Origin: Thelonectria olida
Taxonomy: Eukaryota; Ascomycota; Sordariomycetes; Hypocreales; Nectriaceae
Direction: 5' to 3'
DNA length: 64,000 nt
NCBI GenBank assembly: GCA_020736575.1
Contig: JAGPYM010000036.1
Coordinates: 248,001-312,000 of the forward strand
In this document: in pieces, positions 12,616 through 43,100 of the stretch
Position numbering within the stretch: the stretch's first letter is position 1
Layout: every line of letters starts with the position of its first letter
The notes under the pieces: generated by a model
Told to the model about the DNA's origin: nothing
The model's database searches: none
Seen by the model: only the letters and a program-made list of their open reading frames with translations
Position numbers and translations under genes: made by a program

Positions 12616-15600
12616 ATGGCTGCCGTCCGTGGAATGGAGCACACCAAGTACGTGAATTTGTATTGCGCTGAACCGAGTGGATGTTAACAATCTGCGCCTT
12701 TGAACAGGACCGATCAGGAACTTGCCATCAACATCAAGAAAGCCACCAACCCCGAAGAGATTTCTCCCAAGCGCAAGCATGTCCGAGCATGCATTGTTTA
12801 TACGTGGGATCATAGGTCTTCTGCCGCCTTCTGGGCTGGCGTGAAGGTGTATGTTAACCAGCCTCAGTTGTCCCCTTTTGTCCCTGCTAACGCCGTCATG
12901 ACAGTCAACCAATCCTCGCCGATGAAGTCCAGACGTTCAAGGCCCTTATTACGATCCACAAAGTCCTCCAAGAGGGCCATCCTAGCGCCCTGAAGGAGGC
13001 AATGGCGAACCGAGCCTGGATTGATAGTCTCAACCGTGGCATGGCCGGCGAGGGAATGCGCGGTTACGGGCCTTTGATCCGCGAATACGTTTATTACCTC
13101 CTCGCGAAGCTGTCCTTCCATCACCAACACCCCGAATTCAACGGCACATTCGAATACGAAGAGTACCTAAGCTTGAAGGCCATCAATGACCCTAACGAAG
13201 GCTACGAGACCATCACCGACCTGATGGTCCTACAAGATAAGATTGAGCAATTCCAGAAACTCATCTTCTCCCACTTCCGGAATGTCGGAAACAACGAATG
13301 CCGTATCGCAGCGCTGGTTCCCCTTGTTCAGGAGAGCTATGGCATTTACAAGTTCATCACGAGCATGTTACGCGCTATGCACTCTAGTAAGTTGATGTTA
13401 ATCGACTACATCAAAACACGGAAAACTAACGGCAATCAGTGACTGGCGACGATGAAGCTCTAGAGCCCCTCCGACAACGATACAATGCCCAACATTACCG
13501 TCTTGTCAAGTTCTACTACGAATGTTCCAACCTCCGATACCTGACGAGCCTGATCACCATCCCGAAGCTGCCTCAAGATCCACCTAACCTCCTAGCCGAA
13601 GATGACGACGCGCCTGCCCTCCCGGCTCGACCGAAGCAAGAAATTGAACGAAAGCCATCTCCTCCACCACAGCCCAAGCAAGAAGAGCCCGACGAGATGT
13701 CCGAGTTTTGGAAGAGCGAGTTGGACCGTCAGAACCGTGAGTATGAGGAGCAGCAGCGAGTTCTCGAGGAGCGTCAGCAACAAGCCTTGCTTGCACAGCA
13801 GCAGGCTCAGCTTCAGGCCCAACGCGAGTTCGAGGATCAACAACGTGCTTTGATGGAGCAACAGCAGCGCGAACAGGAGGCGCTTGTAGCTCAGCAGGCG
13901 CAGTGGCAGACACAAGGCCGTCTGGCTGAGCTGGAACGAGAGAACTTGAATGCGCGAGCTCAGTACGAGCGAGACCAGCTTATGCTCCAACAATATGACC
14001 AGCGTGTCAAGAATCTTGAGAGTGAGCTCTCTCAAATCCAGAATAGCCTCGGCCAGCAGATGGTGAGCAAGGACGACCAAATCAAGGCGTTGCAGGAGCA
14101 GGTCAACACCTGGAGGACCAAGTACGAGTCACTTGCCAAACTCTACTCTCAACTCAGGCATGAGCACCTTGATCTCCTCCAGAAATTCAAATCTGTCCAG
14201 CTAAAGGCCGCCAGCGCTCAAGAGGCTATTGAGCGACGTGAGAAGCTGGAGCGCGAGATCAAGACCAAGAACCTAGAGCTGGCTGACATGATCCGTGAGC
14301 GTGATCGCGCGCTCCACGATAAGGACCGTGTGAGCGGCAGCAATAAGGACGAGGTCGAGAAGCTCAGACGTGAGCTTCGAATGGCCATGGACCGAGCTGA
14401 CAACTTGGAGCGCAGCAAGGGCAACGAACTGTCCACCATGCTAGCCAAGTACAACCGTGAGATGGCCGACCTAGAAGAGGCTCTCCGCAACAAGTCGCGG
14501 GCTCTCGAGGATGCGCAGGGCAAGCTCCGAGATGGCAGCTCGGACCTTGAGCAGCTTCTTCGGGACAAAGAAGAAGAACTCGAGGTCTACAAGACAGGCA
14601 TGGATGAGACTCTCCTGGAGTTAAGCCTGCTCAAGCAGAACCAAGGGGAAACAGATAATGCTCTGGACGGACAGATTGACGCGCTCATCCTGTCTAACCT
14701 TGACAAGATCAATGATATCATCGACTCAGTCCTTCAGTCTGGTGTCGCGCGTGTCGACGACGCTCTGTATGAACTGGACTCCTCCATGCAGGCTGGTAAC
14801 CAGAACGCCTCCCCTTCGTTCGTCCTGTCTCAGATTGAGAAGGCGTCTGCCAGCGCTATGGAGTTTGCTACAGCATTCAACAACTTTATCGCAGATGGCC
14901 CCAACAGCACTCACGCCGAGCTAATTAAGAACATCAACGTCTTTTCGGGAGCGATTGCAGATGTGTGCAGCAACACCAAGGGTCTTACACGTCTGGCTAC
15001 TGATGACAAGAAGACGGACGCATTGATGAACGGGGCACGACAGTCTGCACAGTCTACGGTCCAATTCTTCCGTGGACTACAGAGCTTCAGGCTCGAAGGG
15101 ATGGATCCCCTACAGAAGACGGATGTGGTCATCAACAGCAATAACGATGCGCAGATGAATCTGCAAAAGCTGAACAAACTAGTCGAGGCCTTTGCGCCAG
15201 GCTTCGGCAAGCTCACCAACAAGAAGGGAGATCTAGGAGATCTCGTCGACCAGGAACTGAGCAAGGCAGCGGATGCTATTGCAGCAGCGGCCGCCCGACT
15301 AGCCAAGCTCAAGAACAAGCCCCGTGACGGCTACTCCACGTATGAGCTCAAGGTGCACGACTCGATTTTGGACGCAGCGACTGCAATTACGAACGCCATT
15401 ACACAGCTTATTCAAGCAGCGTCGGTGACGCAGCAAGAGATTGTACAGGCCGGACGCGGATCATCCTCCCGAACGGCTTTCTACAAGAAGAACAACCGAT
15501 GGACGGAGGGACTCATCTCGGCTGCCAAGGCGGTGGCTTCTTCGACGAACACGCTCATTGAGACTGCGGACGGAGTCATCTCGAACCGCAATAGCCCAGA

Positions 15601-16061
15601 GCAGCTGATTGTCGCGTCCAACGACGTGGCGGCGTCGACGGCCCAGCTCGTGGCGGCGAGTCGTGTCAAGGCGGGCTTCATGTCCAAGAGCCAAGAAAAG
15701 CTGGAGCAGGCCAGCAAAGCTGTGGGAGCGGCATGTCGCGCATTGGTGCGCCAAGTGCAGACCATGATCAAAGAGCGCAGTCAAGAGGAGGACCAAGTGG
15801 ACTACTCTTCACTCGGGGCCCACGAATTCAAGGTGCGGGAAATGGAGCAACAGGTAAGTTTGTCTCTTCCCCATGCGAACAAGGGCGGCGCTACGGGGTT
15901 GTCGGCCTTAACGGCTACTCCTTCAGGACAGGCGACGATCAGGATGAGGACGAGAGCTAACCCAACCATGACAGGTCGAGATCCTCCAATTGGAGAATTC
16001 GCTAGCGGCCGCGCGGCATCGTCTAGGAGAGATGAGGAAAATCTCTTACCAGGAAGAGTAG
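12616..16061 (+). CDS. SLA2: Endocytic adaptor Sla2/End4 (HIP1R homologue)
   Basis: Cortical protein linking clathrin-coated pits and membrane phosphoinositides to actin. Exons are 12616-12647, 12708-12848, 12905-13386, 13440-15853 and 15975-16061, giving 1,051 residues as expected for Sla2. An N-terminal ANTH domain (residues about 5-270, with TDQELAINIKKATNPEE and the ITIHKVLQEGHP motif) is followed by a glutamine-rich central coiled coil (about 305-620) and a C-terminal talin-like I/LWEQ actin-binding module (from about 810). The last 121-bp intron must be removed to reach the natural end; reading through it gives an unrelated tail. SLA2 is the classical border gene of the MAT locus, and MAT1-1-2 follows 866 bp downstream. 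Confidence 0.96.
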
Positions 16062-16927
16062 GGCGGGCTTGGCGTGGCGGAGGGCTAGGCAGAATAGAGG
16101 TCAAGCGTCGGACGGGAGTCTACTGCGCCGTCTTGATGGCAGAGCTTCGGACACGGGACATGGTAATTATGTCAGGTCAGCCGCGAGAGAAAAGATTGTT
16201 TATAGCTTCTCAAGATCCCGTGACCTAGTGAGGAATGCGAATGTCGCTCGTCGTAGTGATCTCTTGTTGGTCAGACAGTTGGACTACCAAGCCCGGTGCA
16301 ACACACCCAGTGCTAGAGATTATCGAGACGGGGACGAGAACTGCCATCATGTACTGCATTATTATAGTCAAAAATGCCGATAATCTAGGCATACAATAGA
16401 GGTCGATACAGGCCAAACCCTGGCATTGCATCTGTCTCAATAAGCTTCTCTCCATCCGACCCCCTGTCCTCCAAAGACCGCTCAAAATCCGCCGCTCCAT
16501 CCCCGTCCCGTGTTGGTCGGTCCCGTAGTGTGAGTTGTAGAGCGAACCTAGACGGTGCGCCTTCGACGTCCCTTGAAAATCCACGGGAAGAAATAATTCT
16601 CACGCCAGGTCGTACTCATAACCGCTTCCTAGCAAATGACGGGAGCTTACCTGCCTCCCTCACTGGGAGTTTGTAGGGAAAGTTGCAGTCGCGCGAGCGT
16701 CGCTGTCAAACGCAGCTGTTGTACAGCTGCCCGCCAGCTTTGAGCACTTAGGTACCGACCTATGTTACGTTGCCTTGCCTGAAAGTGAATCACAACCTTT
16801 TACTCTGGCGTTTGCTTTCGCCTCTTGGCATTGATTCCGATCAAACAGCGACTCGTTCAAAACAAAACGTTGGTTCGGACCTAGCCTTTTCGCAACTTCG
16901 ATCCTTCATCATCCGCATGCCGCGACC
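16062..16927. promoter_or_regulatory. SLA2 3' region and MAT1-1-2 promoter
   Basis: An 866-bp spacer. It contains the minus-oriented copy of the MAT-region repeat (16617-16754), ending 173 bp before the MAT1-1-2 start codon. No gene was recognised. Confidence 0.55.
16617..16754 (-). repeat. MAT-region dispersed repeat, copy A (inverted)
   Basis: Two blocks, read on the minus strand. Block 1 is 48 bp (16707-16754) and matches 23667-23714 at about 44 of 48 positions. Block 2 is 80 bp (16617-16696) and matches 23406-23485 in the opposite orientation at roughly 90% identity. Most differences in block 2 are C/T or G/A transitions. Block 1 contains a 19-bp hairpin with arms GCAGCTG and CAGCTGC around TACAA. 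Confidence 0.8.
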
Positions 16928-18414
16928 ATGGATAACCTCCTCTGCTACGAGCCTCTCTGGGCCGATGGTGCCTCGACGGCTTTTCGCTTCCCACAGAAGG
17001 ATATCCACGATCTGATCCTCAAGTGTATGAAGCAACTCAAGCTTGATTCGCCCACCGAAGCCATTGCCTCATCGATTGGAGGTAAGATCTCACTGTCGCC
17101 CTTTTCTTCGTATCGAAGCTCACCACATTCCAGACATCATTTCGACTGTCCTCGAATTTCTGGACACATTGCTTCGAAATCAGTCCGATGAGAACTTCAT
17201 CCTTCAGAGAGCCCGAGCTGCCGCCAACACCGTCTCTATGCCTCCTGAAATTGCAATTCGCAGTGCTATTGTGGCATGGTACCTGTCTTCCTACACAACC
17301 CTGCATCGACCTCGGCCAGATACACCCCAGCCCCTCTTGGACCAGTCCAACGCTGCGGTAGCCCAGAGAGAGGGAGCAATTGACACCTCGATCGCAAACT
17401 TAGGTTACTTGGCTATGCTTACGTTGAAGGAGATGTGGGTTCCGCCTTCGGATAATAAACTTCGAGTTGCGTCCCTCATATCAAACGGCACTGTCACGTT
17501 CCTAGTCGTCGGCATTCTGATCATCCCCCATCTTGGGAACGAGGTCAACTGGCCTGACGAGCTCTCGAAATTCGGTCCTCTGGCCCCTTTTGAGACGCTT
17601 CTCAAAACATCTTGGGCTGTTGCGAGAGAGAAAGTTCCTGGTTTCGTGCCACCTCCCGGCATCGAGTTTGGTGCCACAAACGCTGAAGTCAAGCTTAACA
17701 AAACTGGGCACACCCTAATGACCAGTGTTGGCGAAGGAGGAGAGTGGTTTGAGGTCCCGTATTGGCATCCCTGCAGGGTTGTCCCTGGTTCTGCGTGGAA
17801 CAGGTTCATAAGAAACACGCACCAGCACATTTTCCCGACTAAACCACGGGATGAACTTACCAGCGAGGTTTACTACAGGGTTCCCAGTTCAGCCTGTTCT
17901 CTCGTCGACAGAGTCCGGGAGTACTACCAGGAGCTTCGCACCCATTTTGATCAAGTTCGTCATGTCTGCCTATTCGATTATGACAACACACTGACATTCA
18001 AATTAGGAGGATATAGATCGCTATCCTCCTGTTAGCGAGGAGGCAAAGGCCGAGCTATTCGTTCGATTGGCTGAGGCTACGGGGCTTATGTATCCCATCA
18101 ACCGACCATGGGAGGAAGTAAGTTTCATTCGTGACCCCCAATAACTCAAGGCTTACCAAATTCCAGGAAACGAATGATGTGGAGGAGCTCGCAGACCTTG
18201 GGTATATGTACGAGCTGCCTTTCGTAAGTTTATGCTGTTCTCAGCTTCCCGTCAAACACGGCTAACTTTAGTGACCCAGCGCAAGAAGCCTGCCAGTGAC
18301 ATGAATGGGTATTTGACTCTTCCGTTCCTGAACAGCCTTGTGCATTCGTTTCGGATGGGTGTTGAGCCAGTCCCTACCGAGATGGGGCTCGTTGCATTTG
18401 GTTTCAATGGTTGA
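16928..18414 (+). CDS. MAT1-1-2: Mating-type protein MAT1-1-2 (PPF-domain family)
   Basis: Idiomorph-specific protein needed for sexual development in Sordariomycetes; its molecular role is not settled. Exons are 16928-17081, 17134-17954, 18007-18117, 18167-18223 and 18280-18414, giving 425 residues. The N-terminus MDNLLCYEPLWADGASTAFR and the central region (AIVAWYLSSYTTLHRPRPDT, then YWHPCRVVPGSAWNRFIRNT) match my recollection of hypocrealean MAT1-1-2 proteins, including the conserved P/W/F-rich core. Donors are GTAAGA, GTTCGT, GTAAGT and GTAAGT, with branch points before the acceptors. It lies next to SLA2 and is separated from MAT1-1-1 by 3.5 kb; normally it lies between MAT1-1-1 and MAT1-1-3. 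The second donor (GTTCGT) is the least certain junction. Confidence 0.85.
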
Positions 18415-21400
18415 ATACTCCTGGGCTTCAACGCACCAAGTTGGCAGTCTCGTGAGGGCGGTCAAATTAGGGATGCGAGTTGTACTATTCACTATGGGCT
18501 TTGAGTGATAGATTGCCACTAGGTTTTCGCAGATCGGTACTCCCTTGGAACTTGGACGGTCACGCCAGCCCTTCGAAGACGATGGCAAATACAGTGCATT
18601 CGATTGACATGATTCCTCCGCTCCCCTTACTACGTTTATCATTCTTGCTGGTGGCTTTTTCACAGAAAGGTGCTCACGCACCACCCCCACTTGCGCGATC
18701 GCGCCCGATCCCTGTTGTTCAACCCAGGTCGTAGCTTGGCCAGATTCCTTCCCCCGTCATCTCACGTTCGTTTTCGCAAGATTAACATTGATGAAGCGCG
18801 CCGCTGTGGAGCACGAGATCTGATTACTGAAACGTTGTTAGTCCGTGAGGCTAGTTCCATCGTAGTGGATCGACATGATGTCGCTACCCTCCATCTCTTC
18901 GGACCTTGGCAAACCGTGTAATCATCTCGCAGAACTTAATTTATTCGGCCATAAGGTGTCTCGTCTTGTCTTCCTTGGAAGAAATCGACCCGGTTATTGG
19001 AAAGCCGAGTCTCTAAGGTTTGGTAATCTAGAACTCTCTCTTGGGTCTTAGTTGGCTTTGGCTGAGACAATTTAATCGTGTCGGGCTGAGCTGAGCCGAA
19101 CTGCAAGGAGGGGATGGTGCGTCATGCAGTTGGTTGTCCGTAAGCAAAGCAAAAATAAAGAGTCAGACACGGGATTGAGGGGCTGCTTCGTAAAACCAGG
19201 CAAACACATCCAAATTAGAGCACTCCCTGCTTCTCCTTTCTCACCCGTTGTTCCCTCGCGCAAGGCACATGGCACTTTCTTTCAAGCTCTTTTCTTTGTT
19301 CTCACAAAAAGAAGCAACGGAAGCCCGCTTTGATACGGGCATGTAGGGTAGTCTCTGTGGCACTTGCACAACCCACCCACGCGGCCCCTCATTTTCCCCT
19401 CGCCTCCTCATCCCACTTTGTCTCATTCAGTCTAGCCCAAGTCTGCTGCCAAAAGCGGAGTCTCACCAAGTCCCTGTCCCTGCAAAGCGCCTAGCGTACC
19501 TGCGTAGTACAGTACGTTTATGTATGTACGTGCAAGTAGGGAGGCTTGAACGAGGCTTGCTGACACTATAGGACGGGACTGGCGGATCCCCCGCGTAAGG
19601 AAGGGAATTAACTGGATTGCGGATGGCGGATGTAGGCGAAAAGTGCGTATCAACGGTATTGTGCCAGACACATCTCGACTTCTGTTGGCTCCGATAGACA
19701 TTGCAAGCAAGAATGTTTGCTCGACTCATCACCAACAGGGCTTGTGGAGAAGCGCAGTGGAGGGTGGTAGACATGTAAGTCTGAAAATAGTCAGCAGGCT
19801 TGTTTCTATCCGCTGTTTGCCGTTGTGCAAAGATAGACTTGCCGTTGCCGTCTGGGGTCGAGCGTGCATGATGATGCAAAGAGTCCATGGCGAACCGTGT
19901 GAAAACCGTCCAGCGTCGTACACCCGTTGGTTAGTGCAACGCAAGGTGCCGGCGACTTGAGTCCCTTACTTACATGCCAGTGTTGCAAAGTGGGCTATGC
20001 ATGTCTATGCCAAGGTCCCCGAGAACGCCACACCTTGGCAGAATGTAGCATCGAGACCTTCTTGCCAACATCTCGGACTAAGGAATCGCGCAGGAACAAT
20101 CCGGTTAACTCCGAAAAACCCTGTCGCCATCTCCATGTTATTGCGCTTCTCCCATTTACGCAACTGGCCGTCTGGCCGTCTTGATTCGCCTCCTGGATAG
20201 CCACCCTTCAACAAGGCTGATGGATCTCAAGGAGGGGATCACCGGGCTCTCGTTGCGAAGGTTATGCCAAGAGGGGCTTGACTCTATGCGGTATGCGCGA
20301 TGGGCCAGCAGCCCAGCCTTGGCCTGCGCTCAAAGTCAATCGATTGACATGGACGAGATAGGGAGTGGGATTGAGCCATTAGAGAGCACTGGAACACAGC
20401 TGCGCTTCCACCAACACATGATGGAATTGGAGCGCACATGGAAGGAGGGTGAACTCGGGGCGGCCAGGCGGGTAACGTAGCCGATTTCCATTTTCAATAT
20501 TCCATTCCTTTTTTGCTTTTTTATTTGAACTGCTTGGTTGACCCAACCAGGCTCAAGCCCTCGTTGCCCTCGTTGCCTAAGGTACGTTGCCTAAGGTACG
20601 TTGCCCAAGTTTCCCAAGCTGCGTTGCCCTGGGCCACGCACAAAACCCCTTGTTATTGAATTGGCCGAAAACAACAACAAGCTGTGAGAAGCCCTCTGCG
20701 CACTCGAGCTCCCCAGGTGAGGTTCAAGTGAACTGCCGATGGGAATCAGAAGAAATGTGGGGCAACAAGCGGAGGGGAGTGTGATTAGCAAGTTCCACCT
20801 CTATCAAGGACCCCTGCCGCAGATCCACGCACAGACACATGCCGTTTGCAAAGGTGGACCTGACAAGTGCGCGTGCCCCACTCTCGTTTGCTCAATCGGG
20901 ACGCAACGCAAACCACCCCCCGGTCCACTGTCGCCTACCCTAGTCTTGACTTGGCCCGTGCGACGCAACGGCACCCCTGCCCCTGCTTTCCTGCGAACTC
21001 CTGCGAAGAGCGAGTCTGCGAGTGCCCCTCCGCAACAGGTACAACTGCGCGGCTGGTTACCAGGCAATTCAACAAGTCACTCACGCAGCCAGCCCAGGCA
21101 GAACTGCATGAGCGTCGCGATCAGGTACGTACCTCTGTGTGAAAACTCTGCTCTCCTCGATCCCAACGTGACGGTCGCCCTCACTGCGATCGAAGTCAGT
21201 CAAGGATCAAGGTACGTTATTTCAATGAGGTAAGATGAGGGTCGAGATGCTTCCCGTAGGTGGCTTCGATGCATCTGCGGCGGGCGTCGCTGGCGGGAAG
21301 GGAAGCCGGCGCAGTGGGCCAAGGTGCCTAACGGAACAAGGTGGTAGGCATGTCGGTTTTGTTGCACGAGAGAGCTCTGTCGCACGAGAGCCGTAGGGCA

Positions 21401-21919
21401 TGCACACCTGTCCTCTCGAGGCCTCTATTTGGCTTCTTCTGAAGAGGAGACGTATATCACCCAGTTTATTCGGCCAGCTTCGAGCTACGAGAATCTTGAC
21501 CACTCGATCATTTCACAATGGCGAGAGAAGAGAGTTTGAATTGGCCAGATGTGTACCCAGGCAAGGAGTGAGTCCGCGACGATTGCACGCGATGCCATTC
21601 GGTGCGATAAAAAACAAGGTACCAACCACCTTTTCCCACCAAGGTCCACCGTCGCGTGTCTGCGACCTTCCACAGACTTCCAGGAGGAGAAGCCACCACA
21701 GTAATTATCTTTCGGCCAAATGAACATATTGATTGACACTTTCAAGGGCTGAGCTTATTGTTACGGCGGAAACAGAGTTGCACAACAAGAGATAAACGAT
21801 AATGCTTGTTTGATAGCAGACATTCGGAAACTCGCTACTTCTGAGGTTGTAATCTACCATTGCCTCCCTTCGCCCATACCGGATCTTTTGTTGTACTATG
21901 AACACGTCTGTTTATGAAC
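18415..21919. other. Gene-poor spacer inside the MAT1-1 idiomorph
   Basis: 3.5 kb between the 3' ends of MAT1-1-2 and MAT1-1-1, which converge on it. Reading frames are short and have no protein-like composition, and no transposon signature was recognised. A short tandem of CGTTGCC(T/C)AAGGTA-like units lies near 20570-20620. Base composition is ordinary, not AT-rich. Confidence 0.5.
20570..20625. repeat. Short tandem GTTGCC-containing repeat
   Basis: Several copies of a roughly 14-bp unit (CGTTGCCTAAGGTA and variants) lie in tandem within the MAT spacer. No coding sense is apparent. Confidence 0.55.
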
Positions 21920-23183
21920 CTAGCCATCAATCAAGTAGTGGAAGTCTTGCTGAGGGACATAGTTGTTGCCCTCATTACCAGTTACTACAAGGCGTTAGAT
22001 TGGGTGCATGACATAAAGGTGAGTGGGTTGAACTTACTTCCAAGCTCCGAGAGCTCTGGCACAACGTGACCAACAGCAAGATCGATCTCACGAGGATTGT
22101 CGTTGTCAACGGGATCGGTTTGTTTGATAGCCGAGAACTGAAAAGTGTGGTCGATGCGAAGACCAATGTTGGTGTCGTAGTAAGGTGCCCACTGAGTTGG
22201 ATGAGGCCGCGCCATCATGGCGTTGGAGACTTCGCTCATATTGTGAACCTGAAACAGGCGAGGAGGGTATTGATCGAAAGCTTTAAGATTGAAGTTCGGC
22301 CCAACGAGCTCCTCAGCTGCCTCACGAGGACGCACAATAGCGTCCGCCGTAAAGTCCAGCTTCTCCTGTGTGATCAGATAAGGTGTCTCAACGGGCAAGG
22401 TAGACGTGGTCATGATTCCGTTGGTGTTCGCGCAAAGACGTTCCATAAGTCGGTAGCCCTGCTGGGAAAGATATCCAGTGTTAAGAAGGGCCTTGAGGAG
22501 CTCGATTTCAGTGGATGGAACGACCTCAATCTGAGTTGGAGCCACGGTAACAGCTGGGTCCTGGACCAATATCTGGGAGCCTGTTCCATCTTCCCGAAGA
22601 ACCCAACCAAGAGTAGGAAGGTAGACGCTGGGATCAACGATATTCATGATGGGGCAGCAGATGGCAAGAAAGCCTCCGAGTGAGATGTTGCACTTCCCAA
22701 CCTCATCGCGGGCGAAGGAGTAGACCTTGGCGATCAGAGCCCACTTGTTTCTGAAAGGTTCCTTACCCCACAGGGTCGTCAAGAAACCAGAAGCAATTTT
22801 CTGCTGGGCTTCCGGGAAGAGTCTGAGGTAGTAGGCTATTGATAGTTAATAATGAAAGCGCTGCTGGAGAAGAATTGAGACCTACTGCGGAAAGCCATGA
22901 AGGCGTTGAGGGGTCGCTGAGGACGGTCACCGCTGCCGTTGGCGGCTGCCTGGGCGGGAGGATTGGCTGGAATGGAAGCCGCAGCGATGTTTGGCTGATC
23001 ACTGACAGTAAGATCTTCAGGCATATTCTTGAACCAGTTGGCAGCGACGGCAAAGAAGACATCATCGTCAACGATGGACAACAACTGCAAGGCGGAGATG
23101 TTCTTCAAACGTCGCATGAGTCTCTCCTTGACGTCAGCTGACTTCAAGGTGAGCTCTTGAGGAAGTTTGGGAAGTGAAGCCAT
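21920..23183 (-). CDS. MAT1-1-1: Mating-type protein MAT1-1-1 (alpha-box transcription factor)
   Basis: Master regulator of MAT1-1 identity; nuclear DNA-binding factor controlling pheromone and receptor genes. Exons are 22886-23183, 22038-22835 and 21920-21984, giving 386 residues with exact phases. The alpha-box begins near residue 87 with RPQRPLNAFMAFR and continues YYLRLFPEAQQKIASGFLTT and LWGKEPFRNKWALIAKVYSF, the hallmark of MATalpha_HMG proteins. The first intron (50 bp) falls inside the alpha-box at the position conserved in Pezizomycotina. A second intron (22037-21985) with TCTAAC branch point leads to a short last exon ending HYLIDG. It diverges from MAT1-1-3. Confidence 0.96.
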
Positions 23184-23405
23184 CCTTGGTTGCTGTTATT
23201 GTTGTTGTTGTGATTGTGGAGGATGGATGAAGAAACAGGAAGACGAACATGGGAGATTTATGTGAGGGGGAGTGTCTTGAGCAAGGGTGTGGGTCAAGGA
23301 AGAAAATGCCCCTGTAGGGTGTGGAAATATCATCAGTATGAAATCATGAAGAGCGAGGTACGTACCTAGGTGGAGAGGGCTGGGGTCTTGTTTGAACGAC
23401 AGGGG

Positions 23406-23714
23406 TCGCGCAACTGCGACTTTCTCTACAAACTCCCAGTGAGGTAGGCGGGTAAGTTCCCGCCATTTGCTAGGAAAGCGCTTTGGAAAACTTAACCTGA
23501 TTACCTACCTACCTAAATAGGTACCTAGGTAGGTAGGTACCTGGGTAGGTAGGTAGGTACCCAGTTGTCAGTGAGTCACAATGGGAAACAAATAGCCATT
23601 CGTGTGCCGGGGAACAATAGCAAGAGAGTGCATTGTGTTGAGGGAGGTACCTCGGACAATAGCTACTACCTAAGTGACCGAAGCTGGCGGGCGGCTGTAC
23701 AACAGCTGCGTTTG
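23406..23714 (+). repeat. MAT-region dispersed repeat, copy B (permuted)
   Basis: Block 2 at 23406-23485 and block 1 at 23667-23714, both in plus orientation, so opposite to copy A at 16617-16754. The block order is 2 then 1, whereas in copy A read 5' to 3' it is 1 then 2. The two blocks are split by about 180 bp that includes the TACCTAGG simple repeat. Sequence just after block 2 (GCGCTTTGG...AACTTAACCT) is shared with copy C. Confidence 0.8.
23504..23562. repeat. Self-complementary TACC/GGTA simple repeat
   Basis: Runs of TACCTACC followed by GGTAGGTAGG form a near-palindromic tract able to fold into a hairpin. Shorter relatives of TACCTAGGTAGG occur near 50370-50408 and 54012. Confidence 0.7.
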
Positions 23715-23857
23715 TACCTACCCGTTATTTCGCCCCAGGAGGTCATGTTGGAGATTTTTGAGCCACTTTTCTTCTTCATTCTTCATTTCACAACTGGACG
23801 TTGCCCTTTTCCACTTGCCTCCTCCATCACCAACCCGCCATACTTGACACGAGCAGC

Positions 23858-24610
23858 ATGGCTACGTATTCGGAGATCCGGGGAGACTTCCGCCCTGATA
23901 ACGCCATCACCTTCGTTACGATTCAGGCTACCGGAGACATTCATGTTTTCATCGCGGATTCATATGGCCTTATGTTTGTCAAAGGTGTCGCGGACAGATT
24001 CAGGTAAGCCTATTGCATGATAGGTTAAATGGAAACACGACTAACCTCAGCAGCCAAAAATGCCAGCAGCCAGTAAAGGTGTTCCATGATGACGCTGTCC
24101 ACAAGTATCGGCTCTGTCCTCTGTCATTGGAGCTTCTGGAAAACCCAACACTTTACGATGGGTTTCTTTTTGAGCGTGGTATGTTCAACGAAAACAAGTG
24201 TATCTCCGAACGTTACTGATGTCGGTTTCAAAGATGAGTCTGATCGAGCCGTGGCTCAGCGAAAGCTAGACCAAGCAAAGAAGGCGACGGAATTGCAAAC
24301 CCACATTCCGCGCCCCAAGAACAAGCAGTCCCTATATCAACAAGCGATGTCACCTGAAATAGCCCGTCGTCACCCTGGAATCACCAGTCAGGCAGTCTGT
24401 GAGTTTCTGCATCCACATAATACTACATTTGAATCCTTCTAACGTTGTGCGCTAGCCGCTATTATTTCGGAAATGTGGAAGAATGAATCCCTTAAGGTCT
24501 TGGCCTTTTGGCAAAGCATGGCTGACGAAGAGGAACGGCAGCATAAGCTGTTGTATCCGAACTATAAGTACGCACCCCCAAAATTTATCTCAGAAAAGAA
24601 ACTTGGTTGA
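23858..24610 (+). CDS. MAT1-1-3: Mating-type protein MAT1-1-3 (HMG-box transcription factor)
   Basis: MATA_HMG-type DNA-binding protein of the MAT1-1 idiomorph. Exons are 23858-24003, 24054-24178, 24234-24398 and 24456-24610, giving 196 residues. The HMG box occupies about residues 115-190: HIPRPKNKQSLYQQAMSPE, RRHPGITSQAVS, then MWKNESLKVLAFWQSMADEE and YPNYKYAP. The third intron splits a serine inside the box, the position conserved in all fungal MAT HMG genes. Intron 1 ends in a CAGCAG tandem acceptor (24050 or 24053), so one extra serine is possible. The protein stops soon after the box, so the C-terminus is short. The HMG sequence and N-terminal part fit MAT1-1-3 better than MAT1-2-1, from which the neighbouring alpha-box gene also argues away. 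Confidence 0.88.
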
Positions 24611-24983
24611 CGAGTCAGCTAGGGATTCGGCTGGAGACCCGGCTCGGGATTTGGCTGGGGATTTGACTGATCTCTGATCTCCATATTGATTCTTACTGAG
24701 TCAAGAAGCATATTATATTCCCTCCATTCTACGATCCTGAGGTGATTTAGAATCCCCCCAGCCCACGGTCCTGAGGCGACTCAACTCAAGTAAGCAGTTG
24801 CTCATGGTTCTCCCTGTTTATAGATTGGGTTCTAACAAGTGCGCACAGCTTCGAACACGGGTGGCTTAGCTTGACGGATTTCATACCCTGACCACGAATA
24901 ATGAGCGAATGATAGATGAAGGGTGAAGGCCGGTATGGATGCTCGCTTAGGTTGACCATGGTGCCGTATAGGTGTCTTTTCAG
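24611..24983. other. Intergenic region downstream of MAT1-1-3
   Basis: Begins with a degenerate repeat of GGGATTTGGCTG-like units (24622-24670). No complete gene seen. Confidence 0.4.
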
Positions 24984-25815
24984 CTTACCTGGGCGACATC
25001 AATCTTTCACTCTCATTCCAAGTCTCTGGTGGTAAAGGTCGGGGTAAATGGAGGCAATGGATGGTGCTCGAAGTAGTTACCACCAAAGAAATCAGATCCC
25101 TTGCTGGGGATCATTCACTGAGATCAATCTTCCTCGACCGTGCAATCGTCATTGAGTGAGACCTTACCTACCTACCTATTCAAGTGCGTTTACTATTGAT
25201 GAACCCCAAAAACCTGGAAGGAACTTTCCATGGATAAGGTAGCTTGAAGGTTTCCCGGGCAGGCATTGTCTCCTCCAAGTTTTAATTTGCAAGCAAATCT
25301 CCCACAACTTCCTCGCTTCGCTTCGCCTTAGTCCGCTTCCCCTTTTTGTAGACAATTCAAGAGGCTCGACTGTTGCAAACGTTTGGTATGACTTTGCGGG
25401 TGACATTCTGGTTAGGTTCCATTCGAACCAACCTGCACCCGCATGGCTCTCTTGTTTTCAGGTTCCTGACGGCCAAGAAACCCGCTGGTGGAACGCGACG
25501 GCGAATCCATGGGGCGGTCCTATGAACCAAGTCTGGGCCTACCTTAATGCCATTCATGGTCAAGATGGGGAGACTTTTCCCGATCTCATTCAAGGGAGAG
25601 ATCTCCTCAGTCTGCGTGAACAGCTGCTTATATTCCCTTGCCACCAGGGATTGCTGTGGCAGACGGCGTGGATGACGGAACGGGCCATGATGGATCTAAA
25701 CAGCCGAGTTTCCGGGGTCTACGCCATCTCCTTTAAGAGAACTGAACCGTCGGTGAAATTGGACCGTTTTTTTTCAACTTTGATGTCCTTTTTCCGCTTT
25801 GATCAAATAATCTAA
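24984..25815 (+). CDS. Unidentified candidate gene between MAT1-1-3 and COX13 (5' end not found)
   Basis: Two protein-like exons join in phase. Exon a (24984-25155) follows a GTGTCTTTTCAG acceptor and reads YLGDINLSLSFQVSGG through SIFLDRAIVIE up to a GTGAGA donor. Exon b (25263-25815) follows a GGGCAG acceptor and includes NVWYDFAGDILVRFHSNQPA and RWWNATANPWGGPMNQVWAY before a TAA. The tryptophan-rich composition looks coding, but I recognise no family and find no convincing initiator ATG upstream. It could be a real idiomorph or accessory gene, or a remnant. An optional intron may end at 25351. This is where APN2 would normally be expected, but the sequence does not resemble APN2. Confidence 0.35.
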
Positions 25816-25946
25816 TAATACAAGGCTAGGGATTAGTACGTTGGGTAGGCTGAGATAGGTTTGCTTGTCCTTTGGTTGCTTGTTCCTTTTCCTTCTTCTC
25901 ACTCTCGTAAACAGCGCGAAAGAATGCAGCAAATGTGAAGAGAGTA

Positions 25947-26820
25947 TTAGTACGAGATTGAGAGCATCCCATCATTTTTAGTAAGGTACGTAGTGAACAA
26001 GATGAGTGAATCCTGGGTAACATCTGCGTCATATTCCTTCAGGATTCTCAGTTTGGTAGCCATACAAAACCTTTGGACTGTCTTCTGGAGCAAAGCCAAG
26101 GTGTTGTCAGAGACGGCCATGTAGGTAAGAGTGGCTTTTACGGTCAGCTCAATAACATCGCCATCTCCGAGCTAGGGAGCCGAGCAAAGGTCATCAAGAG
26201 CCGTGGCTAGGTCTTTTTGAATGAACCTCTTTGCTGTAATTCTTGGCTTAATCCAGATACGAGCTTCGGCAACCTGTTCGTTCAATAGACCTAAATCGTG
26301 GGCAAAGGCTTTGATCCGGACCTGGGAAAACTCGTGATCGGGACAATGCACTGCGATTGCGAAATCCAGAGACTCTTTCCCAGGCCGGCCGATAAACTAT
26401 ACAGTCCGAGCACTAGTTGTGCAAATGCCTAAGTAACTGGAGACGAGAAAGCCGAAAGCAAGTTCTGTCCATTGCTGCTGTGACCCGCCATCTTTATCCA
26501 TTAACTGCTGCAAGTTATCCTGTAAATATCGGTTAGCTCCTTACTCAAATAAAAAAACAAGTGAAAGGGAGGCAATTACTCACATCCTCGTGCTGGGGTC
26601 AGTCGCTCCCATGCAGTCGACTGAGCGGACTCATGGGGTGCCGTCTGCAAAGCGTCAGTTAGCCTGCTACTGAAATTATAAGTAAGAAGGAACCGAGCAC
26701 TTAAATCCTAACTCTGGGGTTGGCCGTTATCGTTAGGAGTGAGCTGGACGTACTCATCGGATGTGGGTTGAGCATTCTCGCGAGGCGCGGATGAGAAGTT
26801 CTGAGTTTCTGCAAGCCATG
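25947..26820 (-). pseudogene. Decayed unidentified gene with two in-frame TAG codons
   Basis: The minus strand shows several exon-like blocks with good splice signals (introns about 26645-26712 and 26520-26583, both with CTAAC branch points). From 26519 down to 25947 one frame is continuously protein-like: GQNE-type residues, then RPGKESLDFAIAVHCPDHEF, IKAFAHDLGLLNEQVAEARI, and LGDGDVIELTVKATLTYMAV near the end. It is broken by TAG at 26397-26399 and at 26172-26174. Each TAG could derive from CAG by C-to-T change at a CpA site. The second exon also fails to keep phase with the third. I do not recognise the family. Most likely a pseudogene beside the MAT locus. Confidence 0.45.
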
Positions 26821-27175
26821 GGAGCCGGAACGAAGTGTCACTCAGCCTGCTTCCTGGAAAACTTGTCTTGGCGGCAGGCCTTTATGCTCATAACGCGCAA
26901 AAAATTACCGTCTGATCTTAAGAGTAAGTTTGCGAACATTGGAAACTCAAAACTGTCCTTTCACCACTAACTACCACAGTCACACTCTCTCCCATCGAGG
27001 CGAGCGGATAGTATGAGGTCACGTGATTGCGAGTCACAGGGCAAAAAGTTTGGCACCTGACAATTGAGGCAGCACTGATTGGCGGTTCTAGCCGAGCTGG
27101 TCCAAGGAATGACCTGATCTCACATCACAAACTTGTTTGTATCCCCCAACTCGTCAATCAACAACATCGCCCACG
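26821..27175. promoter_or_regulatory. COX13 upstream region
   Basis: Contains GTCACGTGA at about 27018-27026, a CACGTG E-box common in promoters of mitochondrial and ribosomal genes. Possible 5' remnants of the decayed minus-strand gene lie at its left end. Confidence 0.45.
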
Positions 27176-27903
27176 ATGTCTGCCGCCCGCCAGCTTACCC
27201 GTACCGTCCCGCGCTTCGCTGCGCAGCTGCGCACTCCCGCCCAGCGCCGCCTCGCCAGCTCCGCTACCGAGAACGCCTTCATCAAGGAGCGTGAGCACAT
27301 CAAGGAGCACGCCAAGGGCACCACTGGTAAGTGAACCGACGCCAAAACAGCTCAATTGGAGCCATTGGACCAATTGCTGACCTTGTGCAGAGCTCTGGAG
27401 GAAGATCTCCATCTAGTACGTGCCCCTCTCGCCATTGAGTGAATTTACGATACCTGCGTCGATTTCGGACAATCGGATGGTCCTGGAGGACGATGCCGAG
27501 GCTGTGATTATGGTGGAATGATGCTAACAGGATTGAAGCGGTGTTGCTCCCTGCCTCGTCCTCGCTGGCGCCAATGCCTACTGGCTCTGGAATGAGCATT
27601 GGGAGCACTGGAGCCACCTGCCTCCTCTGGAGGAGCGTGTTGAGTACTCTTACCAGAACATCCGCTCCAAGAACTACCAGTGGGGCAATGGTGACAAGGT
27701 GAGTCGATACACCCAATTGATTGAAATGAACACGGCTAACGATAATTAGACTGCCTTGTAAGTTATCCGTATCCTCCGAGCTTCCCAAAACCGATACGTT
27801 TGCCGATACCAAATCCATCTCCTGCCTGACCTTGGGCAATGCTAACTCTCGATGCAGCTGGAACGACAGTGTCAACTACCACAACCCTAACAAGGTTGCC
27901 TAA
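27176..27903 (+). CDS. COX13: Cytochrome c oxidase subunit VIa (Cox13)
   Basis: Small nuclear-encoded subunit of mitochondrial complex IV. Exons are 27176-27326, 27391-27415, 27539-27698, 27750-27757 and 27858-27903, giving 129 residues. The N-terminus (MSAARQLTRTVPRFAAQLRT) is an arginine-rich mitochondrial presequence. One membrane segment (GVAPCLVLAGANAYWLW) precedes the conserved HLPPLEERVEYSYQNIRSKN and the FPWGDGD-like NYQWGNGDKT motif. Exon 4 is only 8 nt long, yet phases close exactly and the tail FWNDSVNYHNPNK matches the family. COX13 is a right-flank marker of the MAT locus, normally following APN2, which is missing here. Confidence 0.96.
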
Positions 27904-28320: not shown

Positions 28321-28436
28321 CTCAAACTCCCAGTGAGGTACCTAGGCAGGTAAGTTCCCGTCATTTGCTACCTAGGCAGGTAAGTTCCAGTCATTTGCTA
28401 CCTACCTAGGCAGGCGCTTTGAAAACTTAACCTAAT
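28321..28436 (+). repeat. MAT-region dispersed repeat, copy C
   Basis: Matches block 2 of copies A and B (AACTCCCAGTGAGGTA, then GGTAAGTTCCCG and CATTTGCTA) and shares the downstream GCGCTTTG...AACTTAACCTAAT with copy B in direct orientation. It contains an internal tandem duplication of a 30-bp unit (28341-28370 and 28371-28400, one mismatch). Block 1 is absent. Confidence 0.75.
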
Positions 28437-28895: not shown

Positions 28896-29275
28896 ATGAT
28901 CGAGTGCTCCTTAAACGGATCGAGAAACGCCTTCCGGAGATCGAGAAACGACTTCCAGAGGTCGAGAAACGACTTCCAGAGGTCGAGAAACGACTTCCAG
29001 AGGTCGAGAAACGACTTCCAGAGGTCGAGAAACGACTTCCAGAGGTCGAGAAACGACTTCCAGAGGTCGAGAAACGACTTCCAGAGGTCGAGAAACGACT
29101 TCCAGAGGTCGAGAAACGACTTCCAGAGGTCGAGAAACGACTTCCAGAGGTCGAGAAACGACTTCTATCACCGGAAGTACTGAAGTACCTCGAAATCAAA
29201 GCCGCTGAAGAGCGGCGGTTGCAGGAACTTGTGGACAAGATTACCTGGTGGCGGAAGGCCAAACGAAATTCCTAA
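28896..29275 (+). CDS. Minisatellite-encoded repeat protein, frame uncertain
   Basis: Twelve tandem copies of a 21-bp unit dominate this stretch. One frame, open from 28736 to 29275, encodes heptads (I/V)EKRLPE followed by a non-repeat tail with LKYLEIKAAEERRLQELVDK, but it has no ATG. Another frame has an ATG at 28896 and encodes RNDFQRS repeats to 29183. The amphipathic charged heptads and the natural-looking C-terminal tail favour the first frame, which would then be a downstream exon. No homologue recognised. Confidence 0.35.
28916..29166 (+). repeat. 21-bp minisatellite, about 12 copies
   Basis: Unit GTCGAGAAACGACTTCCAGA plus G. The first one or two copies carry A for G in the first codon and other small changes, and the rest are essentially identical. 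The length is a multiple of three and the unit lacks stop codons in four of six frames. Confidence 0.95.
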
Positions 29276-37190: not shown

Positions 37191-40100
37191 ATGGCCTCCT
37201 CGCTGGCTTCCGACAAGCCCAGCTTGCCGGCCCCTCGTGCTGCGGCCAACGACCCCTTCGTCACATCCACACCCGCGCCCGCCCGCAATCGTTACTCCAA
37301 TTTCGACCAGGACCTCTTCATCGCCGGTCCTGCCTCGTCACCGGGCCAGGCCAAGCGTGCTCTTGAGGCTCATCTCGTCGAGACCGAACGACGCCTTGAC
37401 GAGGCCGGAAAATTGGGCACTGCCCTCGTCTCGCAGCGCAAAGCTCTTACCGAACAACTTCAGGAGGTAGAAAAGTTGCAAGCTGAGGGCGAACTCAATC
37501 CCGAGCTGCGCCAAAAGCTCGTCGACATCGAAAAGGAGTACCACAATCTCGCTAGAGAATCCGCGAGGGCATTCTTGCCCAAGCAACGAGTCCCCAGCAA
37601 TGAGGCCAACCCTAATTCCCCCTTTGCGCCTGAGAGCCGGAGCGGCAGGGTAAGTATCATGCGCTTCCCCTCAACATCTTCTAAACGGAATCGAGAGACT
37701 GACTCCCTTCATCCAGCGTTCCGTCAGTCCTTCCAAGTTCGAAAGCCAGGCGACCGGTTCCCCCACCAAACTTAGCGTCCCAAATCGAAAGATTCGCAAC
37801 CAACCCTCGAACCGAGTCCACGACATCGAGTTCGCCGCTGAAATCAGTACCTCGCTCATCGCCCAGGTCCGCAATCTCCAAGCCTTGCTCGCCGAGCGAG
37901 ACGAAGAGGTCAAGGATTACAAGGAATACAATTCACAGCTTGAGAGGGATTCTGAAAACTTGAAGCAACGCGCCAAGACTCTCGATGAGAGCGAGAACCG
38001 CTACAAGGAGGAGAACTGGAACCTTGAGACAAAGCTACAAGAGTTCGCTTCCCAACAAAAAGAAGCCTCCGACCGTGAGAAGAAGCTCACTCAATCCCTG
38101 AACGCCATCACCGCCGAAAAGGTGACAGCGCAAAGAGAGCTTGACGAAACCAAGGTCACTCACGCCAGACTCATTGAAGAATATGCCGCTGCCGTCAGAA
38201 ATCATGACATTGAACTTGGCACAGCGAAACGCAAGATTGGCATGGCCGAGGGCGAGCGAGCTGCCATGCAGCGACGGATTGACGACCTCACTGGCCAGAA
38301 CCAGGAGCTGGCGAGGGCCTTCTCTACCCAGCGCGCTAGAGTCGCATCGATGGAGTCTGCTCCTCGTGCCAGTGATGATGACTTCGAGTCTGCTGCCGAC
38401 CACATTACGCCTGAGCACTCACCTCCTCAGTCGCCTATCAAGGGCACCCCCAGACATGCCGTTTTGGAGACCGAGACGATGAAGTCATCCCTGCACCACG
38501 CTCAACGTACCATCCAGAGCCAGCGAGGTCTGCTTCACCGAGAAAAGACTGAGAAGCTTGAGCTCAGACGGATCATCCAGGACCTTCGCGATGATTTGGA
38601 AAAGGCCAGGAACGAGTCCAATGAGACAAAGTCACACCGCCGCAGCCGTAAGAAGGAATCTAAAGAGTTTAAGAAGCCCCCTGGACTACTCGGCAGCTTC
38701 CGTTCGAGCAAGCACGAAGTGATTCAGGACGACGCTGAATGGGAAGACCAGGGAGATGTGTCTCCTCGGGCTATGAGCTCACCTATGACAGCAAGCACCA
38801 TCACTGTTAGAAAACAGGACCGAGAATTGGCCTTCCCCATCGAATCCGTCGAACACGACACTGCCAACGAAGCTAGCGAATCCGCATTTGAGACCGCTAA
38901 TGAGCGCGCGACCGAGACCGAGGATTTCCAGACGGTGAATGAGGAGTTCTCTGGTAGTGACGATGTTGAGACCGAGACCGAGGGCACTTCACGTGGCTTC
39001 GGCAAGATGAACAAGCCACCCAGCCTTCCCTCTGTCTTGTCTCGACATGCTTCCCGAAATTCCATCAATAGCACCGCATCTACCTCTGCTGACGAGGATG
39101 ACTTTGTCCATATGAGGACTCCGACCGGCACTCTGTCCTCCAATCGAAGCAGCCGCTTCCGGCTCAGCCGTGGTATCTTCAGCCGCTCCCGCCAGGCTAG
39201 TGAGGAACCTAATCTGCAGAGCAGCCCTGCAAGCTTCGTGAGTAGCAACCGCGAAACTCCTCAGGGCGGCCAGAGCCTCTTCGCCGAACTGCAAGAATTC
39301 GACGGTAGTGATGACGAGTCTGTTGGAGCTCACTCTCCAAGTCGAAGAGGTCGTTCCGTGACTCCTGGCTCTGTTGGTACTCCATTTTCACCACCGCCAC
39401 CCGTGCCGGCTGTTCCTAGAGTTGTCATGGTGGACTCTGGTGTCATGACTGAGCCGGTTGATATTGCCCCGGCTCGTAGTGGAATACAGACACCACCTCC
39501 TATTCAGTCTGGTCTTGCGCCGGAGGGTCACGACGAGTCATTGCCGGCTTCGCCTGTCAGTGTGGTGGCAGCCGCTCGATCAGCGTCCATGTCGTCTGTC
39601 GTCGACACTTCTGGCGAGCGTCATGTGTCGTGGCCAATCGACGAGCTCATCAGCAGTTCTCGACCCGTGTCCATGTCATACAGTGATGCCGGCGCACAGC
39701 ATGATCCTGATATGGAAGAGAAGCTCGCTCAATTCCCGGCTCCTCCAAGACTGTCGCCCATCTTGCCCCCCACGCTCAGCATATCCTCCATTTCTTCTGA
39801 AGATATTGAACCCCGAGAAGAAGCACCGCCATCTCTTTCCATGGTGTCCATCTCCAACCAGAGCGTTGAGCCTGTGGCCGAGCCCGAAGTCCCCCCACCG
39901 GACCTTAGCTTGACGAGTATTATTGTCGAGCACTTGGAGCCTGTTGCTGAGCCCGAGGTGCCTCCACCGGATCTTAGCTTGACAAGCATTGTTGTCGAAC
40001 ATTTGGAGCCTGTAGCTGAACCCGAGATTCCTTCTCCAGCCCTCAGCCTGTCCACAATCCTTGGCCAGCATGTGCAGCCTATTGCTGAGCCTGAGGTCCT

Positions 40101-43100
40101 TCCTCCTGCCCTCAGCTTGTCAACTGTCTTCGGTGAGCATGTGGAACCCATCGCTGAGCCCGAGATTCCTCCTCCCTCCCTCAGCTTCTCCACAGTCGTT
40201 GGTGAGCACGTCGAACCCATTGCTGAGCCCGAGATTCCTCCTCCTGCCCTCAGCTTGTCAACTGTCTTCGGTGAGCATGTGGAACCCATCGCTGAGCCCG
40301 AGATTCCTCTTCCCTCCCTCAGCTTCTCCACAGTTGTTGGTGAGCACGTCGAACCCATTGCTGAGCCCGAGATTCCTCCTCCTGCCCTCAGCTTGTCAAC
40401 TGTCTTCGGTGAGCATGTGGAACCCATCGCTGAACCAGAGATTCCTCTCCCCGAGTTGTCTTTGACATCGATGTTTATGGAGGAGGTGACGCCAGTGGCA
40501 GAACCAGAGATACCTCTACCAGACTTGACTCTCACAACCGTTGTCGCAGAGAATATCGAGCCAATTGCGGAGCCGGAGACTCCTGTGCCAGAGTTAAGCT
40601 TTGTTGCAATTGCTGCTGAGGAGCTTGAGCCAGTACCCGAGCCACAGACACCTCCCCCAGCACTATCCTTTGCTTCAGTCAACACCCAATCGCTTGATCC
40701 CGTGGAGGAGCCTGAGGTTCCAGCTCCAGAGCTGAGTCTGTCCACCATTTGTCAGGAGGCAGTCGAGCCTGTGGCCGACCCCGAAATTTTGCCAGTTGTC
40801 GTGGTGCCTCCGCCTCCATCGTTGAGCATGTCCGAAATCCAGCGAGAACATGTGGAACCAGTTGCTCTCAAAGCACCTGAGCTTAGCATGTCTAGCATTT
40901 TGGGAGAGCACATTGAGCCGATCGCAGAGCCTGAGCCGGAACCTATTGTTCCTCTCCTGCCCTCGTTGAACCTGTCAGCTCTCTGGCACCAACACGTGGA
41001 ACCCATTGCGGAACCAGAGCCTGTCCCTCCACCGGCACCGACCCTCACCATGTCAACCATCGTCGGTGAACATGTGGAACCTATCGCGGAGCCGGAGCCG
41101 GAGCCTATTATTCCTCCCGCACCTCAGCTCAGCCTGTCTACAATCCTCGGCGAGCATGTTGAGCCTGTAACAGAGCCAGAACCGCCAGTTCCCGTTGTGC
41201 CCCAACTCTCCATCTCGGTCATCGTTGGCGAGCATGTTGAACCCATCGCTGAGCCTCAACCTCCTGTTCCCCCTATGCCTCAACTCAGCCTGTCAACAAT
41301 CATTGGAGAGCATGTTGAGCCTATTGCAGAGCCCGAACTCCCCGTACCACAACTCAGCATCTCAACTATTCTCGGCCAACATGTCGAGCCTGTTACTGAG
41401 CCAGAGCCACCTGTCCCCCCTATGCCCCAGCTTACCATGTCGTCAATCATCAGAGAGCATGTCGAGCCCATTGCTGAGCCGGAGCCTCCTGTGCCCCAAC
41501 TCAGCTTGTCAACCATTGCCAGAGAGCACGTACAGCCGATCGCGGAACCCGAGCCAGTCCCTGAGGTGCCCGAGCTCACTATCTCATCTATTCGAGGCGA
41601 ACTTATTGAGCCAGGTCCTCTTGAAACACCTGACCTTGCACTGTCCACGATTGCCGCCCAGGAAGTTGAACCTGTCGCCGAGCCCGAGAAGGTCATTCCC
41701 CCGCCATCCCTCAACCTGTCCTTAATTCGTGCCGAACATTGTGAGCCAAGAGAGGAGCCTCAGCCAGTTCCGACCCCCATTGAGCTGGGCTTTTCAAACC
41801 TCTCCACGGAGCAGGTTTCGCCAATCTCCGCACCCGAACCCCTCCGCCCCGCCCTTGGATTATCTCCTATTCTCAACGAGAACGTCAGACCTGTTCTGGA
41901 GCCTCTGCCTGCACCCCCTGCTCTAGTTATGTCTTCCATTGCTACGCAGGGTGTTGAGCCGATCAGCCCTGTGCACAAGGTCCCCAGTTTACCGGCATTC
42001 GGATTCTCGTCGATATCATCCGTCGAAACCCAGCCAGTTGCGGCCCGAAGTCCATTTAGAGATGGCTTTATCCTACCGCGGGACATGAATTCCCCATTCA
42101 TGGAGAGAGACCTCCCTGAGACCCCCACCAGCAGATCTTTTGGACGTAGCAAGAAGAGGGACTCATCGCCAATCATTGCCGAAGATGAGACTAGACAATC
42201 TCCCAGTGACTCGCCAGAGGCAGAGACACCCGAGTCTCAGCGACCCTTCAAGGAACTCTCAACCAACTCGGATGCTCGGCCCTCACGCAAGGCTCCCGTT
42301 CCCACCAGTGACCAAGGTGCCCAGACTTCACTTACCGCTGATGTCATCGATGCCATGTTCAAGACCAGATCTCGTCCTGGTTTCAGCCCTGAGAAGAACT
42401 TGTCCGTCGCTAGCTTCGGAACACCTGGAACGACTGGTACTGTTCGGATTCGCCGATCTCAGGAAAGCTTTGGCAGTCCTGTTCGTCACAAAGGCAAGAT
42501 GCTCGACGATGGTTTTGACTTGAGTCCTATGCGAAGGCCTGGTAGCTCGGCTAGCGCAGCTAGTGGTAGGGGATCTATTCTCGATGTTTCTCCTCTTCCT
42601 GGAAATCACCGCCAAAACCTCGAACCTGCAAGAACCGGCTCATCTCATGGCGTGCAACGAAACATGGGACCCCCTCTGTGGCCAGCTTCTGCCCTCAAGG
42701 CACGACCAACGACTCCGAACGAGAACCTGTCTCCTGTGTCCCGTGGCACCCCAACTCCTCGGGCCCGTGGCGCGTATGACCATCTTGAAGCTCACTCACC
42801 TACAGGCCTCACCGATGCGTCAAGGAAGTCTTCAGTATCGTCGTTCGCGTCTGAACTCGACTCCAGATTTAACATGCGCCCCGGTGAGATTGGCATGGAC
42901 GGATTTGGACCTAACACAGATCCTCGCATGATTCAGGCCATAACGCAGACCATGATCGGCGAGTATCTCTGGAAGTACACACGCAAGACCGGTCGTGGAG
43001 AGATGTCAGAGAACCGACATCGTCGATACTTCTGGGTGCACCCTTACACGAGAACCTTGTACTGGAGTGACAGAGATCCCTCAAGCGCTGGGAAATCGGA

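Follow-up and report, generated by a model that had tools for sequence, protein, structure and literature searches.

How does a gene order that is canonical in the Sordariomycetes come to be broken, and can the break still be read from what it left behind? The mating-type locus MAT1-1 of Thelonectria olida (Nectriaceae, Hypocreales) raises this question. In the 64-kb stretch of DNA analysed here (the window), which lies within a contig of 362,467 bases (C96) in a 52.5-Mb genome of 165 contigs, the genes follow one another as SLA2(+), MAT1-1-2(+), a 3.5-kb spacer, MAT1-1-1(-), MAT1-1-3(+) and COX13(+), and the three MAT1-1 genes have the order 2-1-3, not 1-2-3. A single inversion that turned MAT1-1-1 and MAT1-1-2 round together as one block, about 6.7-7.0 kb in length, is very probably the source of this order. 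We give a probability of roughly one half to the fuller reading, in which the inversion was a single old event made by staggered breaks, and two pairs of short inverted repeats, blocks A and B (Table 1), are its scars. A derived MAT1-1 order with readable breakpoints shows how a conserved order can break.

Gene order and the implied inversion

The features of a MAT1-1 idiomorph are present, namely an alpha-box MAT1-1-1 with an adjoining MAT1-1-2 and an HMG-box MAT1-1-3, and the reading frames of all three MAT genes are intact. The MAT1-1-1 protein is 100% identical to an NCBI protein of T. olida, as is that of MAT1-1-2 to the T. olida record B0T10DRAFT_448785, and the only genome match to the alpha-box family is the MAT1-1-1 of the window. 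MAT1-1-3 has 196 or 197 amino acids in our own models and 206 in the database model, which makes a different splice choice at intron 1. On the left flank of the MAT genes, the SLA2 stop at 16061 is our own reading of the last splice.

Table 1. Features of the T. olida MAT1-1 locus, in window positions.
Feature	Position	Strand	Evidence or remark
SLA2, main part (5' exons outside the model)	13430..16061	+	I/LWEQ and ANTH domains in open frame 13430-16228
Block A, left copy	16626..16696	+	90% identical to reverse complement of 23406-23476
Block B, left copy	16707..16754	+	92% identical to reverse complement of 23667-23714
MAT1-1-2, 425 amino acids, four introns, intact	16928..18414	+	PF17043 (Pfam MAT1-1-2) on main exon
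MAT1-1-1, 386 amino acids, two introns, intact	21920..23183	-	Alpha box PF04769, E 1.6e-36
Block A, right copy (A')	23406..23476	-	Pairs with 16626-16696
Right-junction interval, 190 nt	23477..23666		Holds 70-nt TACC/GGTA palindrome at 23495-23564
Block B, right copy (B')	23667..23714	-	Pairs with 16707-16754
MAT1-1-3, intact	23858..24610	+	HMG box in database record
COX13	27176..27903	+	COX6A family, E 3.5e-50 on spliced protein model
Block A, third copy, partial, internally duplicated, past COX13	28323..28436	- (same orientation as right copy)	Genome and self-comparison matches

The Ophiostomatales, Neurospora and Podospora reportedly agree in how the three MAT1-1 genes are ordered and oriented (PMC3583454), and in Nalanthamala psidii, also of the Nectriaceae, SLA2 is gene 15401 and MAT1-1-1, MAT1-1-2 and MAT1-1-3 are genes 15404, 15405 and 15406 (PMC8914235). 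The locus tags of Fusarium graminum, on contigs stated to be equally long, are 1492 for MAT1-1-1 and 1490 for MAT1-1-3, with room for one gene between them, which would be MAT1-1-2. T. olida shares with the canonical Sordariomycetes locus of these accounts (PMC3583454, PMC8914235) the same three genes beside SLA2 but differs from it in having the order 2-1-3 instead of 1-2-3. Taking 1-2-3 from the literature as the ancestral order, the view that the T. olida order is derived is supported. When the block of MAT1-1-2 and MAT1-1-1 is inverted in silico, the locus reads SLA2(+), MAT1-1-1(+), MAT1-1-2(-), MAT1-1-3(+). An earlier note on this DNA had described the gene order, strands and repeats and had proposed that one inversion turns 2-1-3 back into 1-2-3, with repeats in both breakpoint intervals; the description was confirmed with small corrections, and the proposal is supported.

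Inversions of the MAT locus as such are already known. In Sclerotinia sclerotiorum, a 3.6-kb inversion lies between 250-bp motifs that are identical in 36 of 36 isolates, both orientations segregate 1:1, and one gene is truncated (PMC3574095). An inversion of a few kilobases within the MAT locus, bordered by inverted repeats, is common to this species and, on the present reading, T. olida; T. olida differs in the size of the segment (about 6.7-7.0 kb), in its short, diverged and unmirrored blocks, in its intact genes and in the single orientation of its one assembly (PMC3574095). Within the Nectriaceae, one or two MAT-locus inversions have been inferred for the homothallic Fusarium neocosmosporiellum, one of them involving MAT1-1-3 and MAT1-1-2 (PMC6568001). 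The family and an inferred inversion that involves MAT1-1-2 are shared with T. olida, where however MAT1-1-1 and MAT1-1-2 are the genes concerned, and the available text on F. neocosmosporiellum mentions no breakpoint repeats (PMC6568001). The statement that no inversion was known in a hypocrealean MAT1-1 therefore needs tempering. Searches of open-licence papers, which covered listings and selected passages of text, brought up no earlier account of the order 2-1-3, nor of breakpoint scars of this kind in a MAT1-1 idiomorph.

Repeat blocks in the two breakpoint intervals

The A and B pairs sit in the SLA2/MAT1-1-2 and MAT1-1-1/MAT1-1-3 intergenic regions, which are those where a flip from 1-2-3 to 2-1-3 must have broken the DNA. 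Block A (71 nt) has 7 differences between its left and right copies (9.9%) and block B (48 nt) has 4 (8.3%); transitions make up nine of these 11 differences, and identity is unbroken over at most 19 nt in A and 21 nt in B. The inverted arms are 6,709 and 6,912 nt apart. In searches of the 52.5-Mb genome, A is matched at E-values from 2e-20 to 4e-20 and B at 1e-11. The inverted pairs reported earlier are present, with B kept at 48 nt and A trimmed from 80 bp to 71 nt. Between the left and right copies, no extension of the similarity past the block ends was detectable (scores 0 or 1).

Self-comparison of the 64 kb, with a low-complexity filter and E<=1e-4, gave 26 pairs. Three of them are inverted, namely the A pair, the B pair and a match of A to its partial third copy at 28323-28370. 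An unfiltered, finer scan of 13000-27000 added the TACC palindromes (23495-23564) and one 31-nt pair of 74% identity. Pattern searches of the genome allowing up to 3 mismatches placed a 29-base B pattern at exactly two sites and a 26-base A pattern likewise at exactly two. The genome searches found no copies of A or B outside the MAT region; the DNA search passes over very common words, so that copy counts are lower bounds. Dozens of copies across the genome, which the earlier note had named as a sign against its proposal, were looked for in these searches and did not appear. A genome-wide mobile element was also considered as the nature of A and B and was rejected, both being found in the MAT region only, within the same lower bounds.

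The arrangement of the blocks is informative. On the left, A and B are separated by 10 nt, and on the right A' and B' by 190 nt; each block is inverted, yet their order is kept. If the blocks formed one inverted repeat, B' would come before A' on the right, so one recombining pair cannot have included both A and B. Staggered breaks at both ends, on the other hand, predict the observed order. In such a scheme, the ancestor would have read SLA2 - A - MAT1-1-1(+) - MAT1-1-2(-) - B - MAT1-1-3(+) - COX13, with one staggered break at A, in the SLA2/MAT1-1-1 interval, and another at B, in a promoter shared by MAT1-1-2 and MAT1-1-3. Filling in of the overhangs, or unequal cutting of sister chromatids, would have kept a copy on both sides of each break, and the middle piece would then have rejoined inverted, giving A, rcB, MAT1-1-2, MAT1-1-1, rcA, B (rc, reverse complement). 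The locus has the predicted inverted duplications at both ends, in the order A, rcB ... rcA, B, and the similar divergence of A and B (9.9% and 8.3%) is expected of one event.

In the literature, staggered breaks are recognised by inverted duplications at the ends of an inversion; in Drosophila subobscura, inversion O4 has such duplications from both breakpoints (PMC5080602, PMC7584159). The T. olida blocks resemble those of the D. subobscura inversions (O4, PMC5080602; models, PMC7584159) in being inverted and in the predicted order. In contrast, the latter are chromosomal inversions of an insect, shown against non-inverted chromosomes, whereas the T. olida inversion is read from the inverted state alone, its blocks are very short, and a third copy of A is present. 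We infer that A and B arose with the inversion, that the breaks were staggered, that the inversion became fixed, and that the proximal promoters were kept.

The right-junction interval has a structure of its own. Its TACC/GGTA palindrome folds at -21.3 kcal/mol (z -3.56, 1/200 shuffles as good) and is the third strongest hairpin locus among 6,393 windows of 70 nt, and a fragile site at this junction is plausible. The fold of the left junction, 16626-16754, is unremarkable (z -0.79). In the search against the genome, the 190-nt interval matched only its own reverse strand, through the palindrome; templated filler was accordingly rejected as an account of the interval, the sole genome match being its own palindrome.

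In the reconstruction, the implied ancestral spacers are about 364 bp between MAT1-1-2 and MAT1-1-3, in our judgement an ordinary size for a shared promoter, and about 857 bp between SLA2 and MAT1-1-1. The upstream DNA kept after the event amounts to 222 bp plus A for MAT1-1-1, 173 bp plus B for MAT1-1-2, and 143 bp plus B for MAT1-1-3. Each gene would thus have kept its own proximal upstream DNA, so that a swap of promoters between MAT1-1-2 and MAT1-1-1, as had been suggested for this locus, need not have occurred and is doubtful. We put forward only tentatively that staggered breaks within promoters changed the MAT order, and may have altered recombination with the opposite idiomorph too, but left proximal promoters and expression as they were. 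If true, this would be a documented route for the evolution of MAT gene order without loss of fertility.

Alternatives to staggered breaks

Several points weigh against the staggered-break reading. The third copy of A, beyond COX13, implies that the inversion cannot have been the sole occasion on which A was duplicated. Over a 48-column core, the left and right copies differ at 4 positions, left and third at 5, and right and third at 5, so that the three are about equidistant; over all 58 shared columns the differences are 5, 12 and 13, respectively, the extra columns being poorly aligned ends. The right and third copies also resemble each other over about 25 nt of outer flank (0/300 shuffles reach the score), a stretch that is missing from the left copy (99/300 shuffles reach the score); under staggered breaks the left flank must therefore have been lost later. 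The model does not account for the origin of the 190-nt interval at the right junction. Block A precedes the starts of two genes by nearly equal distances, 231 nt for MAT1-1-2 and 222 nt for MAT1-1-1, and is oriented alike toward both, which the model has to treat as chance. The match of the restored locus to the canonical strands leans on general background, according to which MAT1-1-1, MAT1-1-2 and MAT1-1-3 have the pattern +,-,+. On the side of DNA, the argument draws on one T. olida assembly and is qualified to that extent. Replication-based repair can, moreover, leave the same footprint (PMC7584159), and 'staggered break' is accordingly to be taken as a class of break-and-repair mechanisms.

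The third copy leaves, as the main rival, an origin of A as a local repeat that the inversion used, the other choice being loss of the left flank. This rival keeps the inversion but has A present beforehand on both sides as an inverted repeat, part of a small three-copy family local to the MAT region, and ectopic recombination between its copies flipped the segment. The nearby third copy, with a core divergence about the same as that of the other two, and the extra flank common to the right and third copies both speak for it. It needs B to have been duplicated separately, for example when a piece carrying A inserted into the MAT1-1-2/MAT1-1-3 promoter and duplicated 48 bp there, and so placed that the flip also inverted B. 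The blocks are also short, with shared runs now of only 19 and 21 nt, but they may have been identical at the time of the flip. Overall we consider this course of events rather unlikely. Alternatively, A and B could be MAT promoter modules, alike by selection or by copying from promoter to promoter and unrelated to the inversion. The near-equal distances and equal orientation of A relative to MAT1-1-2 and MAT1-1-1 would fit such a role, as would the intergenic position of the third copy and a putative dimeric binding site in the left B, which has inverted 8-bp arms set 3 nt apart (single-strand fold z -2.02, 5/200 shuffles as good); the right B folds no better than shuffles (z -0.11). However, the blocks end abruptly and exceed ordinary binding sites in length, B is oriented toward MAT1-1-3 in the opposite sense to that toward MAT1-1-2, and the positions of A and B coincide with the two intervals where the inversion would have had to break the DNA. 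Promoter modules are therefore an unlikely explanation.

A recurrent switch of the Sclerotinia type, which would flip the orientation of MAT1-1-1 and MAT1-1-2 between generations and which the earlier note had envisaged as an inversion between inverted repeats, finds a basis in the flanking of the segment by such repeats, but is otherwise unsupported and very improbable. In S. sclerotiorum the arms are 250 identical bp (PMC3574095), whereas the T. olida arms are short, diverged and in the wrong relative order: instead of long, near-identical and mirrored repeats there are blocks of 71 and 48 bp, 8-10% diverged and unmirrored, with identical runs of at most 21 nt. After a new flip at A, B would lie next to A' in direct orientation relative to B', and no mirror state would be restored. 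The flip breaks no gene. The switch was rejected as improbable because of how short and diverged the repeats are and how the blocks are ordered. Misassembly at either junction or at both is a concern that a single assembly naturally raises; we regard it as highly improbable, given that both junctions lie well inside the 362,467-base contig, that the window has no N, and that, from general knowledge, imperfect repeats of 71 and 48 bp lack the length to cause a misjoin of this kind. Inverted repeats that flank a MAT segment are therefore no sure sign of a switch. Where there are several blocks, their relative order helps to distinguish scar from switch, a kept order pointing to breakage scars and a mirrored order to a possible recombination pair, and this reasoning is applicable to other MAT loci.

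As an observation apart, the third A copy (28323-28436) is followed by a TATAAAG motif.

Spacer, flanks and minor observations

The spacer between the convergent MAT1-1-2 and MAT1-1-1 (18415-21919) is unusually long. Five open frames that lie in it or reach into it gave no Pfam match at E<=0.1; no second copy of the spacer was found in the genome, and a search of the window with 89 MAT1-1 proteins, a query set without a MAT1-2-1 protein, gave no match there. A hidden gene, a MAT1-1 pseudogene or a repeat in the spacer was rejected on these Pfam, genome-copy and MAT1-1 protein results. The genome has 11 HMG-box matches, and none of the four inspected was judged to be MAT1-2-1, although boxes split by introns can escape such a search, as that of MAT1-1-3 itself did. 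Four HMG-box matches (C123:77223-77414, C150:46725-46916, C93:208852-209043 and C93:72155-72346) lie in open frames that are all of 184 amino acids; their near-equal scores and spread over three contigs may reflect a gene on a repeated element.

In the flanks, two genes to the left of SLA2, with S4 and L21e domains, are those that we take to encode ribosomal proteins S9 and L21. An Exo_endo_phos open frame of 604 amino acids, presumably APN2, lies to the left of the window, about 20 kb from MAT1-1-2 and beyond SLA2 (L006:2839-4653, minus strand; G000:C96:242838-244652). In related species, APN2 adjoins COX13 at the opposite flank of the MAT genes (PMC3583454), and with this candidate beyond SLA2 the MAT flanks seem to be rearranged as well. 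APN2 was also sought by its GRF zinc finger, and the only match, on contig C100, was rejected, as it has a 2OG-Fe(II) oxygenase domain. Exo_endo_phos matches number 73 in the genome, many of them in open frames of about 1,200-1,350 amino acids on many contigs (e.g. C83:127928-128593); such long frames, as in LINE-type (long interspersed nuclear element) elements, suggest copies little damaged by mutation.

Between MAT1-1-3 and COX13, an open frame of 190 amino acids (25243-25815) has the look of coding DNA, with no Pfam match at E<=0.1. Farther to the right, a tandem array at 28920-29165 consists of 11.7 copies of a 21-bp unit with 98% matches and is open in several frames. Diverged direct repeats at 39868-41591 (first offset 69 bp) lie within an open frame of 2037 amino acids, which has a C-terminal PH domain of the Mcp5 type, whose family takes its name from the meiotic cell cortex.
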